NCBI GenBank assembly: GCA_018333865.1
Contig: JAGXSE010000009.1
Coordinates: 201,460 to 265,459 of the forward strand
Direction of reading: 5' to 3'
Source of the DNA: Syntrophomonadaceae bacterium
Lineage (GTDB): Bacteria; Bacillota; PH28-bin88
Length of the DNA: 64,000 nucleotides
In this document: in pieces, positions 36,132 through 41,953 of the stretch
How positions within the stretch are numbered: position 1 is the first letter of the stretch
How the letters are laid out: every line of letters starts with the position of its first letter
Translations under genes and position numbers: made by a program
The notes under the pieces: generated by a model
What the model was told of the DNA's origin: nothing
The model's input: the letters and a program-made list of their open reading frames with translations, nothing else
Database searches by the model: none

Positions 36132-39100
36132 CTAGCCGGCAAGGAGATTTATCTCTTTGAGAACACTTTCCACCAGCAGTAACAGTTCCAGCTGTGGGAT
36201 GCCGGCTGTTCTGATGGAAACAATTAGCCCCCCGGCAGTAGAAAAGGATAAGCGTTTAGGAAACAAAGCCGCAAGCCGCATCAGCTTATCTCCCCTAAGC
36301 TTAGATGAAGGACCGAATACCAGCTGGACCTCCCCTTTTTGCTGCTCCACCCGGGCTATTTCGATCGCCTTAGCCAAAGCCTTGACGCGGCCCATAGCCA
36401 TCAAATTGCGCACTTCCTTGGGAGCAGGACCAAAGCGATCCTCGGTTTCAGCCTCCAGGAACACCACCTCTTCCAGATTCTCTGCAGCCATCAAGCGCTG
36501 GTACACTTCGATTTTCAGCTGGGATTCCCGAATATACCCATCGGGGATATAGGCACTTACGCTGAGCTCCACTACCGGACCGGCAGGCTCCTGGCCGTGC
36601 TTAGGCTCTGTCGCCAGACCCTTGGCCTGCCGCAGCTCTTTGACGGCCTCCTCCAGGAGCTGGCAGTAAAGTTCAAACCCGACGGCCATCATATGGCCGT
36701 GTTGTTCCGAACCTAAAATATTGCCGGCACCCCGGATTTCCAGGTCCCGCATGGCTAACTTAAAACCGGAACCAAATTCGGTAAATTCCCGGATCGCCGA
36801 CAGCCGCTTCTCGGCCTGTTCGCTTAATACCCGATCCTTCCGGTAAGTAAAATAGGCGTAAGCCAACCGGTTGGTCCGGCCTACCCGCCCCCTGAGCTGA
36901 TAAAGCTGGGACAGGCCAAGGTGGTCTGCTTCGTCGACAATCAGGGTGTTGACATTGCTGATGTCCAGACCGTTTTCCACAATGGAGGTGCAGACCAGGA
37001 CATCAATATGGCCATCCATAAAGTCCAGCATTACCCGCTCAAGAAGCTCCTCTTTCATCTGTCCATGAGCCACCGCAATCCGGGCATCCGGCAGCAGCTC
37101 TTGCAGGTGCCTGGCCACCCGTTCCATGTCCAGGATCCGGTTATGGACAAAGAAAACCTGGCCTCCTCTGGCCAATTCCCGGCGGATGGCCTCTCGCACC
37201 AATTCGGGGCTGTATTCCACCACATAGGTCTGCACCGGAAACCGATCTTCCGGCGGGGTTTCGATCACGCTGATGTCCCGCACCCCGATCATGGACATAT
37301 AGAGGGTCCGGGGGATAGGAGTAGCTGTCAGAGTAAGCACATCAACATGATGGCAAAGCTGTTTCAACCGTTCTTTATGGGCAACGCCAAACCGCTGTTC
37401 CTCGTCCACTACCACTAAGCCAAGGTTTTTAAATTTTACATCGGCAGATAAAAGACGATGGGTGCCGATAACAATATCAATAGTGCCCAACTTCAGTCCT
37501 TTGACGGTTTCTTCCTGCTCCTTTTGGCTCCGAAAGCGGGATAACAGCCCCAAAGAAACAGGGAAGGCTTCCATTCGCTCTTTAAAGGTATGATAGTGCT
37601 GTTGGGCCAGGATTGTGGTTGGGACAAGCAGTGCTACCTGTTTACCGTCCATCACTGCTTTGAAAGCCGCCCGCAGGGCCACTTCTGTTTTGCCATACCC
37701 CACATCACCGCATAGAAGGCGGTCCATAGCCCGGGAAGATTCCATGTCTTTTTTTGCTGCTTCAATAGCCCGCAGCTGATCGGGAGTTTCGGTATAGGGA
37801 AACATGGCCTCAAAATCCCGCTGCCAGACCGTGTCCGGTGAAAATCTGTAACCAACAGCAGCCTCCCGGGCGGCATATAGAGCAAGAAGGTCATTCGCCA
37901 TAGCCTGAACCGATTCTTTTACCTTTTTCTTAGTCCTGGCCCACTCATTGCCTCCCAGCCGGTTTAACTTGGGACCATGGCCCTCTCCCCCGATATACTT
38001 TTGAATTGAAGAGATCTGCTCTGTCGGCACATAAAGGCGGTCTTCCCCCGCATACTGCACCACCAGATAGTCCTTGTCTATACCGCCGGCCTCCAGCTTT
38101 TCGATGCCCCGGTAACGCCCAATGCCGTGCTGGACATGGACCACATAGTCTCCCACCTTAAGGTCGGCAAAAGCAGCGATGCGGGAACCTTCTTTAAAGG
38201 ACCGGCGGGGCCTTTGGCGCTTTTGGCGGCCGAACATCTCGCTGTCGCTGATCATGACCAGTTTCCAAGGGGAAATTTCAAAGCCCTTGGATAGAGTATC
38301 CCAAAGAATAATTACCTGGCCCGGCAAGGGGCGGGCAGCCAGGTTCTCGACAACTGAGGCTTCCACGCCGTAATCCCACAAGGTATCTCGCAGCAAGGCC
38401 GCCCGCTTTTCATCGCCGGCAAGCAAGAGCACTGAATTCTTTGCCTGCCGCCAGTTTTTCAGTTCTTCCGCCAGCAATTCTGTTTTTCCCATAAATGGGT
38501 GCATTGCCTTGACGCTCATGCCGAGAGTATTCTGGGGGTTTAAGCCGGGAACCGCTTTAGGAAGAACTGAAAAACAGATCAAGGGCCGGCCTCTGACCAT
38601 ATCCATCATCTGAGAAAAATCGAGCCGGTGTTCAGCTTGAAGAGGCAGGGCGGCGCCTGTTTCCAGCAGATGACTGAAAAACTCCCCCGCTTCCATAGCA
38701 GACTGAGTTAAGGCTTCCTTGACCCGCCCCGGTTCCTCCACTGCGACTACCGGGCGGGAAGAAAAGTAGTCCCACAGGTCCGCAGGCTGAGGGTATAACA
38801 AATGCCGGAATTGGTCCAGTCCCTCATTCCAGACCCCTGCCGCAAGCTGCTCAAGGTACCCGGCAGTCTTTTCTTCCAGCCGCCAGGCTGCTTCCTGGGA
38901 GCCTCTTTTGAGGAGCCGTTTAACCTGCTGGGCTGCATCTTGAGCTAAACGGGCCCGGCACCGGGTGATCGCTTCGGGAGTCAGGAATACCTCCCGAGCA
39001 GGGTTAATAGCAGCCTCGCGCAGGTTTTCCATAGAACACTGGGAAACAGGGTCAAATACACGGATAGATTCGACCTCGTCATCAAAGAACTCGATCCGGT

Positions 39101-39653
39101 AGGGGTGGGGGCTGGTAAAAGGAAAGACATCAATAATGCCGCCCCGTACGCTGAAGCACCCCGGAATCTCCACCACCTCTGCCCGCTGGTACCCCAGGAA
39201 TACCAGTCCGGCTAGAAGAGAATCCCATTCCATCCTTTGGTTTAAGGCAAGCTGCAGAACTGCTTCTTTCCACTGAACAGGAGGCATTAAGGGCTGCATC
39301 AGGGCTGCGGCCGGCAAGGCCAGAAACCTGACCCGGCCGGCTAACACCCCTTCTAAAACCGAAATTCGCTGGGCAGCCAGGTCTGAACTTTTGGCATATA
39401 CCTCGCATGGCAGAATTTCATAAGGCGGCAGGTAGCCGGACTCTCCGTTGGACAGAAAAAAATTCATATCCAAAGATAACCTTTTTGCCTCTTCCAGCCC
39501 GGGGGTAATGGCTACCAGAGGCGCACCGGTCACCTCCATAATTCCCGCTAACCAAAGGGCGATCTGGGAACCGGAAAGGCCGGATACAGACTGAGTGTAG
39601 TTCCTGTCAATCCCCTCCTGGAGAGAAGCGAAAGCCGGAGTTCCTATTATCAA
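36132..39653 (-). CDS. mfd: transcription-repair coupling factor Mfd
   Basis: Removes stalled RNA polymerase from damaged DNA and recruits UvrA. 1,173 residues, full length. The N-terminal UvrB-like region (PPYEILPCEVYA) precedes the RNA-polymerase interaction domain (KVGDYVVHVQHGIGRYRGIE near residue 500). The translocase motor has Walker A CGDVGYGKTEVALRA, DEEQ box VVDEEQRFGVAHKE and motif VI region QLRGRVGRTNRLAYAYFT. The C-terminal TRCF domain is complete. The start is TTG in the frame given; a weak AGGGA precedes it. A good sigma-A promoter lies at 39804-39832, leaving a leader of about 145 bases. Confidence 0.96.
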   Translation of the reverse strand: MIIGTPAFASLQEGIDRNYTQSVSGLSGSQIALWLAGIMEVTGAPLVAITPGLEEAKRLSLDMNFFLSNGESGYLPPYEILPCEVYAKSSDLAAQRISVLEGVLAGRVRFLALPAAALMQPLMPPVQWKEAVLQLALNQRMEWDSLLAGLVFLGYQRAEVVEIPGCFSVRGGIIDVFPFTSPHPYRIEFFDDEVESIRVFDPVSQCSMENLREAAINPAREVFLTPEAITRCRARLAQDAAQQVKRLLKRGSQEAAWRLEEKTAGYLEQLAAGVWNEGLDQFRHLLYPQPADLWDYFSSRPVVAVEEPGRVKEALTQSAMEAGEFFSHLLETGAALPLQAEHRLDFSQMMDMVRGRPLICFSVLPKAVPGLNPQNTLGMSVKAMHPFMGKTELLAEELKNWRQAKNSVLLLAGDEKRAALLRDTLWDYGVEASVVENLAARPLPGQVIILWDTLSKGFEISPWKLVMISDSEMFGRQKRQRPRRSFKEGSRIAAFADLKVGDYVVHVQHGIGRYRGIEKLEAGGIDKDYLVVQYAGEDRLYVPTEQISSIQKYIGGEGHGPKLNRLGGNEWARTKKKVKESVQAMANDLLALYAAREAAVGYRFSPDTVWQRDFEAMFPYTETPDQLRAIEAAKKDMESSRAMDRLLCGDVGYGKTEVALRAAFKAVMDGKQVALLVPTTILAQQHYHTFKERMEAFPVSLGLLSRFRSQKEQEETVKGLKLGTIDIVIGTHRLLSADVKFKNLGLVVVDEEQRFGVAHKERLKQLCHHVDVLTLTATPIPRTLYMSMIGVRDISVIETPPEDRFPVQTYVVEYSPELVREAIRRELARGGQVFFVHNRILDMERVARHLQELLPDARIAVAHGQMKEELLERVMLDFMDGHIDVLVCTSIVENGLDISNVNTLIVDEADHLGLSQLYQLRGRVGRTNRLAYAYFTYRKDRVLSEQAEKRLSAIREFTEFGSGFKLAMRDLEIRGAGNILGSEQHGHMMAVGFELYCQLLEEAVKELRQAKGLATEPKHGQEPAGPVVELSVSAYIPDGYIRESQLKIEVYQRLMAAENLEEVVFLEAETEDRFGPAPKEVRNLMAMGRVKALAKAIEIARVEQQKGEVQLVFGPSSKLRGDKLMRLAALFPKRLSFSTAGGLIVSIRTAGIPQLELLLLVESVLKEINLLAG

Positions 39654-39803
39654 TTGAATCAGTCCCTGATGGCGGATTTAAGTCACCCCCAAAAATTTAA
39701 AAATCATATAAATAATCAGACAAACCCAAATAACGGGCGCCCGGGTAGGACCCCCACATCAAGGGTTTTTTAATATAAAACAGAAAGCCGGATAGCTGTA
39801 TAA

Positions 39804-39832
39804 ATTATATGCCTGTCATATAGTTCAGTCAA
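39804..39832 (-). promoter_or_regulatory. sigma-A promoter upstream of mfd
   Basis: The minus strand has TTGACT, a 17-base spacer and TATAAT, the best housekeeping promoter seen in the window. It lies between the PrsW-like gene and mfd and would serve mfd. Confidence 0.75.
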
Positions 39833-39894
39833 CCTCAAGGTTTAAAAATACATCATAATTACCTTTAATATTCTTCCGCAACATGGAAGCTATT

Positions 39895-40284
39895 TCATAT
39901 TCTCCCCGTCTGCGCCAGCACCCAGCGGTTCCAAGCCAGGTGAGCAGCTGTTGCGGCTGCCCATCCTCCCGGCCAAAAGCCGGTAATTCCGGTAACATAC
40001 AAAGCTACGGCGCCGAAGGCCGCATGGCCGGCTACTGCAACTAACCCGGCAGTCAATCCCGGCAGCCTTACCCCGCTCCTGAGTTCATAAGCCATTTCCA
40101 TCAGACCGAAGACAAGATGCACCGGCCAGATCGGTACTGCCGCTGCAACAGCAAGGCCGGTCTTTAGCATTTCTTCCACTGCAGGCACCAAAAAAAGGAT
40201 CGCCCGGTTGCCAAAGCGGCTGATCAGCCAGCGGTTAACCGCAAAAGCCAGAGCCGCCGCTAAACTTCCAACTAATATCAGCAT
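39895..40284 (-). CDS. very short PrsW-like intramembrane protease candidate
   Basis: A 129-residue, strongly hydrophobic protein with about four membrane segments. It carries, in order, the four motifs of the PrsW glutamic-type family: EExxK (VEEMLKT, residues about 36-42), FxxxE (FGLMEMAYE, about 59-67), HxxFG (GHAAFGAVALYVTG) and HxxWN (AAHLAWNRW). PrsW enzymes cut membrane anti-sigma factors, but are usually over 200 residues, so this is a minimal version. The start has GGAGGG nine bases upstream. It sits between pth and mfd, where Bacillus has the small anti-sigma gene fin. Assignment is by motif only; activity and target are unknown. Confidence 0.6.
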   Translation of the reverse strand: MLILVGSLAAALAFAVNRWLISRFGNRAILFLVPAVEEMLKTGLAVAAAVPIWPVHLVFGLMEMAYELRSGVRLPGLTAGLVAVAGHAAFGAVALYVTGITGFWPGGWAAATAAHLAWNRWVLAQTGRI

Positions 40285-40367
40285 TGAAACGCTCCCTCCG
40301 CCCCCAAAAGACCCCTTAACCCGGAAGAAATTCAGGCCGAAGGACCTCGCAATGACTCACTGCGATC

Positions 40368-40952
40368 TTATTTTCCTTGTTGGTCAGGCCGCCACGGGTT
40401 ATACTTATTCATAACCTCATCAACATCCTTTTGCAGCAGTTCATTCAGGGCGTCCACGGCCACCGGCAGAACCTGGCGCATAATCCCCCATTCTTCTTGG
40501 CTGAAGTCAGCGAGAACATAATCCGCCACAGCCCATTTTGCCGGAGGCCTGCCAATGCCCAACTTCAGGCGAATAAAATTACCAGCACCCAAATGCTCAA
40601 TAATCGAAGCAATTCCCCGGTGGCCGCCGGCCCCGCCTTTTGGCCTTATTCTCAACCGCCCTGGTTCTAAGTCCAGGTCGTCGGAAACCACTATTAATGA
40701 GCCCGGTTCCACCCCATACCATCTGAGCAGGGGAGCTACTGCTGTTCCGCTTAAGTTCATGAAAGTTTGGGGCTTGCAGAGCACCACCCTGATCCCCTCC
40801 AGCCGGCCCTCACCGATCAAGGCCCCGTGTTTTGTCCGGCTAACAGGGATACTTAGCCGGTCTGCCAGAAGATCCAGGGCCATAAAGCCCACATTGTGTT
40901 TGCTCGTCTCATAACGGGACCCAGGGTTGCCCAGGCCAACTACCATCTTCAT
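40368..40952 (-). CDS. pth: peptidyl-tRNA hydrolase
   Basis: Releases tRNA from peptidyl-tRNA that drops off the ribosome. At 194 residues it is normal. It starts MKMVVGLGNPGSRYETSKHN, which includes the catalytic His20 and conserved N10; the later signature KPQTFMNLSGTAVAPL and the catalytic Asp in VVSDDLDLEPG are present. GGGGGAGG precedes the ATG. It lies between a small membrane-protein gene and the PrsW-like gene, in the Bacillus-type prs-pth-mfd order but with a ger operon inserted after prs. Confidence 0.95.
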   Translation of the reverse strand: MKMVVGLGNPGSRYETSKHNVGFMALDLLADRLSIPVSRTKHGALIGEGRLEGIRVVLCKPQTFMNLSGTAVAPLLRWYGVEPGSLIVVSDDLDLEPGRLRIRPKGGAGGHRGIASIIEHLGAGNFIRLKLGIGRPPAKWAVADYVLADFSQEEWGIMRQVLPVAVDALNELLQKDVDEVMNKYNPWRPDQQGK

Positions 40953-41026: not shown

Positions 41027-41293
41027 CTAGAAAAGAATAAAATAATAGGCCTGCACTGTCAGGTAGCCCAGGGCTCCGATGCCCAGGTAAACCCATCCGC
41101 CAAGGCGGGCGATTTTGGCTTCCCGCTCTAACTGGCGTTCCGCCAACCCCCGGGCTACCATAAAGGTTGACCAGAGCCAGACAATTACCAGCAGCCCTAA
41201 AAAAGTCCAATCGAACCTGGCTTCCAAAACCCGCATCACTGCATCTGCCGGTGGCAGGGATAAATTAAGATTAAAAGGCAAAGCCTCCACCAC
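41027..41293 (-). CDS. small two-segment membrane protein, unknown function
   Basis: An 88-residue protein with two hydrophobic segments (about 30-48 and 66-87) joined by a charged turn, ARGLAERQLEREAKIARLGG. The layout resembles a family of tiny membrane proteins (CLC_0170 type) often found next to germination genes; this likeness is from memory and tentative. The start is uncertain: the GTG at 41293 has no clear ribosome site, and the inverted-repeat element at 41302-41482 ends only eight bases before it, so the original leader was probably displaced. Confidence 0.55.
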   Translation of the reverse strand: MVEALPFNLNLSLPPADAVMRVLEARFDWTFLGLLVIVWLWSTFMVARGLAERQLEREAKIARLGGWVYLGIGALGYLTVQAYYFILF

Positions 41294-41485: not shown

Positions 41486-41953
41486 TTAGCGCCCGCCGGC
41501 AGCAATCCTGCCGGCATGCATCACCCGGTAAAGGACAACCACCAGGCCAAAGTAGGCTAACCCCAGGAAAAAGGTAAAAAGCAGGTCCCAGCCGGTAAAG
41601 GTGACCAGACCCAAAAAAAGCAAACCCCAGTCGATCAGGAGCAATAACCCTGCAAAAGCACTGACATAAAAGGCCCGTTCGCCGGCTCCCCCAGGCAAAT
41701 ACTGGGCAAAAAGGATCACCAGGGCGGTATAGGCTACCGGCAGGAACAGTGGAATTCCGGCAATAGAAGGAAAAACAGGTGCGAACCGCCATAAGTCAAG
41801 GAAAGTTGAACCAACCAACTGGATTCCAAAACTCAAGGCCAGCCCTCCGGCCAGGCCAAGGGGAAAAAACTTTTTAATATTGTCCCGGGAAACGAAATAA
41901 TAAGCTGCCAGCCAGACCAGAAGAGCTATAGCCGGCCAAATTATCCACATCAT
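41486..41953 (-). CDS. integral membrane protein of unknown function
   Basis: A 155-residue protein with about five hydrophobic segments and a short charged loop (YYFVSRDNIKKFFPLGLAGG). The RDNIKKFFP loop followed by a LWRFAP segment recalls small membrane proteins (CBO0543-like) encoded near ger operons; this is tentative. The start MMWIIWPAIALLVW is preceded by GGAGTTGACCTGA, only a modest site. It lies between the two copies of the MITE-like element and downstream of gerC on the same strand. Confidence 0.55.
   Translation of the reverse strand: MMWIIWPAIALLVWLAAYYFVSRDNIKKFFPLGLAGGLALSFGIQLVGSTFLDLWRFAPVFPSIAGIPLFLPVAYTALVILFAQYLPGGAGERAFYVSAFAGLLLLIDWGLLFLGLVTFTGWDLLFTFFLGLAYFGLVVVLYRVMHAGRIAAGGR

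Follow-up and report, generated by a model that had tools for sequence, protein, structure and literature searches.

A putative minimal PrsW/CAAX-type intramembrane protease gene at the pth–mfd locus of spore-forming Firmicutes

The pth–X–mfd locus

The window analysed here, a 64,000-nucleotide stretch of a Syntrophomonadaceae bacterium genome, carries a small gene between pth and mfd that we refer to as X. Its open reading frame starts with ATG, follows a good ribosome-binding site and encodes a protein of 129 amino acids. A first-pass annotation of this DNA, made from the sequence alone, had claimed that the frame contains four PrsW motifs in order within 129 residues and had named the two neighbouring genes. 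We found the four-motif order borne out: it was absent from all of 200,000 shuffles of the X protein, and of the 150 open reading frames of 90-250 amino acids in the window it occurred in one, X itself. Both neighbours had also been correctly named, pth being identified by PF01195 and TIGR00447 and mfd by Pfam. The features of the locus, in window coordinates, are as follows:

36132..39653, minus strand: mfd, transcription-repair coupling factor, downstream neighbour of X (Pfam)
39804..39832, minus strand: sigma-70-type promoter-like site between X and mfd, TTGACT-17-TATAAT, 11 of 12 positions (consensus match only)
39895..40284, minus strand: X, a 129-residue five-helix membrane protein, putative minimal PrsW/CAAX-type glutamic intramembrane protease (open reading frame, orthologues, model)
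39928..39942, minus strand: X motif 4, H115-x-x-W118-N119 (HLAWN, residues 115-119), helix 5; H115 and N119 in 91/91 sequences
40012..40026, minus strand: X motif 3, H87-x-x-x-G91 (HAAFG, residues 87-91), helix 4; invariant in 91/91
40096..40110, minus strand: X motif 2, F59-G60-x-x-E63 (FGLME, residues 59-63), helix 3; G60 and E63 in 91/91, F59 in 89/91
40162..40176, minus strand: X motif 1, E37-E38-x-x-K41 (EEMLK, residues 37-41), helix 2, predicted catalytic glutamates; invariant in 91/91
40295..40299, minus strand: GGAGG, ribosome-binding site of X (read in the sequence)
40368..40952, minus strand: pth (spoVC), peptidyl-tRNA hydrolase, upstream neighbour of X (PF01195, 5e-66; TIGR00447)

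The gap between X and mfd (39654-39894, 240 bp) holds no gene, and it is here that other lineages keep fin. A search of this gap for a remnant of fin found none, either in the minus-strand frames or by profile, and no Fin was detectable in this genome. The promoter-like site in the gap, one such site being found against 1.2 expected in shuffled sequence, suggests from its consensus match that mfd may have its own promoter in this window. Because the site lies between X and mfd, X is here more likely read together with pth. A candidate repeat element in the gap between pth and X was rejected, the word in question occurring once in the genome. Upstream of pth lie two small genes (41027-41293 and 41486-41953), one encoding a CLC_0170 family protein (NF042414) and the other a 155-residue membrane-like protein without a curated family match; both are conserved near pth in a second locus (L064), with 44% and 54% identity.

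Conservation and family placement of X

Of 61 related genomes, 36 gave a single match to X, as did 89 of 200 from across the phylum; among the carriers are a Thermanaeromonas bin and Clostridiales bacterium PH28_bin88. For counts of conservation and synteny we collected 91 distinct X loci. The annotation had made its reading depend on conservation of the motif residues in orthologues, and we found E37, E38, K41, G60, E63, H87, G91, H115 and N119 to be invariant in all 91 sequences, with P34, H56, F59 and N17 nearly so, while pairwise identity drops as low as 16%. The X frame is a genuine gene under strong selection. Distances between X proteins are correlated with those between the corresponding Pth proteins (Mantel r 0.68, p 0.001), and because they track Pth at identities down to 16%, X is an old gene whose inheritance is mainly vertical. 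No plasmid match and no viral contig match that would point to a mobile origin was found.

The conservation of the locus in relatives was likewise confirmed, pth–X–mfd being the usual gene order: 84 of the 91 loci have mfd downstream of X and 62 have pth upstream, with some loci ending at contig edges. One X alone (L026:1441-1830) was seen in plainly different surroundings, with neither pth nor mfd within its 1.5 kb flanks; by eye, an enolase-superfamily-like gene lies upstream and a shikimate-dehydrogenase-like gene downstream. In one further locus a gene for a GerM-like lipoprotein with a GerMN repeat, recognised by eye and without a profile search, sits between X and mfd (L019:1927-2835). 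In two orthologues (G085 and G120) an apparent in-frame TGA proved to be merely the terminal stop codon.

We found no significant match between the window protein and any Pfam or NCBIfam model. Membership of X in the PrsW family PF13367 is not supported: the window protein is not matched by this model and does not reach its curated cut-off, and its orthologues match weakly in 8 of 25 cases, with a best E value of 1.3e-3. Weak matches to PF02517, the Rce1-like model, were found for 3 of the 25 orthologues, and the NCBIfam model of CPBP glutamic endopeptidases matched one of them. The genome itself encodes two Rce1-like proteins, and no PF13367 protein was found in it.

Among PrsW family members, the Bacillus subtilis protein cleaves RsiW. 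Compared by hhalign with aligned canonical PrsW proteins of this phylum, the X profile matched over 126 columns with all its motifs in register (E 2.9e-4). A profile built from 91 rows aligned over its full length, and again each of the four motifs was in register (E 5.1e-5, score 35.6; the best of 60 column-shuffled controls scored 17.4). In the alignment to PrsW the EExxK of X, present in one core helix in 91/91 sequences, falls on the EExxK of PrsW; its FxxxE (E63 in 91/91, F59 in 89/91) falls on FAxxEN; H87 (91/91), in the helix preceding the last motif, falls on the PrsW histidine in AHA; and HxxWN falls on HxxYD. The claim that X has all four PrsW motifs thus stands for EExxK, FxxxE and the histidine in the following helix, and fails for the last: X ends in HxxxN in 91/91 sequences, whereas the final motif of canonical PrsW is HxxxD (PMC4602095), found in 8 of the 9 canonical sequences that we examined.

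There are further differences from PrsW. The protein had been described as far below normal family size, and this is indeed so, X spanning 110-162 residues (mostly 122-138) across the 91 loci against 220-248 for most canonical PrsW frames in relatives; X thus lacks the PrsW size feature of about 200 residues or more with extra flanking helices. It lacks the segment E..DG..Y that is invariant between motifs 1 and 2 of PrsW, has the additional conserved residues H56 and N17, and occupies a different locus. Canonical PrsW is encoded separately in 14 of the 61 genomes, of which 11 also carry X, and because the two coexist X is not simply a replacement for PrsW.

The last helix of X resembles a different family. 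This helix alone, with its AHxxWN, matched the CPBP (Rce1-like, PF02517) profile with a score of 32.2, shuffles reaching at most 16.6; PrsW scored 20.0 against CPBP in the same test, weaker than X. X and CPBP have in common the AHxxWN end, HxxxN in the last core helix (91/91 in X), a pair of glutamates in a core helix and a four-helix core. Unlike CPBP, X has EExxK (91/91) in place of EExxxR, has FxxxE, with E63, where CPBP has the histidine of FxxxH, and is half the usual size, most CPBP frames being 200-310 residues long. Because of these profile matches to PrsW and to the last helix of CPBP, X can be described as a combination in which motifs 1-3 are of the PrsW type and motif 4 is of the CAAX type and, judged by its motif content in sequence, sits between the two families. 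By hhalign it also scores above shuffles against both, its core helices with conserved glutamates and histidines being a profile feature of the superfamily (the RCE-1-like H-group of ECOD). X is conserved and unannotated, and for it the label "PrsW" gives way to that of a new branch lying between the PrsW and the CAAX proteases; we read it as a near-minimal branch of the Rce1/PrsW superfamily of glutamic intramembrane proteases, distinct from PrsW orthologues.

AlphaFold models of two X orthologues, made from shallow alignments, gave much the same confident bundle with five main helices (pLDDT 94.1; pTM 0.87 and 0.84), those of the first model at residues 2-24, 27-47, 52-70, 76-101 and 104-126. 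In both models the motif residues sit in helices 2-5. Since their spacing within helices is i/i+4 or i/i+7, the motif residues of each helix can, in the models, share one face. Foldseek returned no significant structural neighbour for these models; the non-significant matches included APH-1 and viral CAAX-like models, both at E > 2. For one model APH-1 ranked first among the PDB fold matches, and it recurred for the second (TMq 0.45), again non-significantly; a search of the PDB with the X sequence gave no relevant match. APH-1, a subunit of gamma-secretase, belongs to the Rce1-like H-group of ECOD and has QExxR instead of EExxxR (PMC6588880). It has no full glutamate pair and is not catalytic by itself, whereas X keeps the full pair.

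Sporulation, fin and promoters at the locus

The annotation had placed X in sporulation-rich surroundings, and this agrees with what we observed: spoVT and a gerA-type germination operon lie in the same stretch as X, and X is nested among spore-formers. SpoIVA, a marker of endospore formers, is encoded in 86 of 89 genomes with X and 86 of 111 without it among the 200 genomes (p 6e-5), and in 36 of 36 with X and 19 of 25 without it in the 61-genome set; these association figures are inflated by shared ancestry. In three genomes with X no SpoIVA was seen, and two of these assemblies are only 72-80% complete. Taken together, X most likely acts during sporulation.

Like X, fin (yabK, PF10955) occupies the intergenic slot at the pth–mfd locus, and it can adjoin X together with sigma F-type promoters. 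Their products are unrelated, fin encoding a small protein with CxxC pairs and X a membrane protein. The first-pass view that X stands in place of fin is not supported: because X lies between pth and fin in 18 of the 91 loci, with fin directly downstream, the two coexist, and the genome studied here is simply one in which Fin was not detected. In the 61-genome set, a Fin match was found in 5 of 36 genomes bearing X, and fin loci of the B. subtilis type, such as L097, lack X. Fin is small and cytosolic and is absent from most X genomes, and it is therefore not an obvious substrate of X.

Upstream of X, matches to the sigma F consensus reached the top score at 10 of 90 loci, where 2.0 would be expected, and control regions showed no clear excess. 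Sigma F-like sites were found at 7 of 17 loci with fin and 5 of 72 others (p 0.001 at the best threshold, which was picked after looking; p 0.005 by rank test). Examples about 30 bases before X are GAATA-N15-GGAGATACT and GTTTA-N15-GGATATACT. Because -10-like words are also in excess within the pth coding sequence, the promoter evidence consists of the full two-box score and the fin contrast; counts of the -10 box alone were discarded, the excess in pth being equal. The σE, σG and σK patterns showed little or no excess upstream of X, with σG giving a thin result of 3 against 0.2 expected, and a de novo motif search of this region returned solely the conserved C-terminal coding sequence of pth. 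In five loci (L004, L005, L011, L067 and L069) X adjoins or overlaps fin, and in most of them a sigma F-like promoter precedes X. These data suggest a two-gene X-fin forespore operon in several lineages, and in lineages that keep fin X appears to be its first gene. The window copy of X has no good sigma F-like promoter (best score 11.5), and for this organism we infer forespore timing.

A proposed activity and its alternatives

The reading that we favour, and hold to be somewhat probable, is that X is a minimal protease that is catalytically active and has a role in sporulation. Its catalysis and the roles of its residues we infer by analogy with Rce1 and PrsW. X would consist of one leading helix and the four-helix catalytic core of the Rce1/PrsW (glutamic-type, CAAX-like) superfamily; E37 and E38, with H87 and E63, would activate a water molecule inside the membrane, and H115 and N119 would stabilise the transition state. 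Such an enzyme would cut a small membrane substrate at a peptide bond within or close to its transmembrane segment. The gene is inherited vertically at the pth–mfd locus of spore-forming Firmicutes. Structural work on Rce1 favours a glutamate over a metal mechanism (PMC6588880).

A broader proposal, which we regard as tentative and somewhat short of an even chance, is that X founds an undescribed family of core-only intramembrane proteases bridging PrsW and the CAAX proteases. In Clostridia-type Firmicutes it would be an enzyme dedicated to the forespore during sporulation and, where the gene for the sigma F inhibitor Fin is kept, would share a transcript with it. If true, X would represent a so far unrecognised proteolytic step in spore formation, one missing from the Bacillus model. 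It would also rank with the smallest known intramembrane proteases and reveal which portion of the Rce1/PrsW fold is enough. The gene family itself is conserved and unannotated; it nests within the spore-formers and lies next to pth, fin and mfd.

Several members of the Rce1/PrsW superfamily act without known proteolysis, and a scaffold role has also been proposed for some Abi-domain proteins. X could likewise keep the fold without being proteolytic and instead partner or scaffold another membrane protein, much like APH-1 within gamma-secretase; the recurrence of APH-1 among the non-significant fold matches, and a size so small that it could suit a subunit, are in keeping with this. However, both glutamates, E63, both histidines and N119 are retained in 91/91 sequences, an active-site pattern, where APH-1 has QExxR, and fin is the only conserved partner gene seen beside X. 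We consider a scaffold role unlikely, though its probability is not negligible. If X instead made the site-1 cut in a membrane anti-sigma factor, as a PrsW-type protease, it could replace the canonical PrsW missing here, and its PrsW-like motifs, together with three zf-HC2 anti-sigma-like proteins in a genome without a PF13367 protein, would fit. This we think improbable, since those three genes are on other contigs (C1, C2 and C13), X and canonical PrsW occur together in 11 of the 61 related genomes, and X is nested in spore-formers beside neighbours that encode no membrane anti-sigma factor. The earlier suggestion that X controls a sigma or anti-sigma factor is thus unsupported, no membrane-bound factor being encoded beside X and Fin being matched in 5 of the 36 X genomes.

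It is very doubtful that X handles Fin or helps to switch off sigma F directly through an X-fin operon, given that most X genomes lack the small, cytosolic Fin and that B. subtilis-type fin loci such as L097 lack X. Speaking for a direct role are the position of X immediately before fin, the two genes being closely spaced or overlapping in many of the 18 loci, and the sigma F-like promoters before X-fin in several of them; deactivation of sigma F in B. subtilis also involves other unidentified mechanisms besides Fin (PMC5942855). We give marginally less credence to the possibility that X has no protease fold and that its likeness to PrsW motifs arose by convergence in an unrelated small membrane protein. 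The want of a significant curated-family or fold match is compatible with convergence, but the full-length alignment of the X and PrsW profiles has every motif in register and scores far above shuffles, and X orthologues match both the PrsW and the Rce1-like models weakly and independently.
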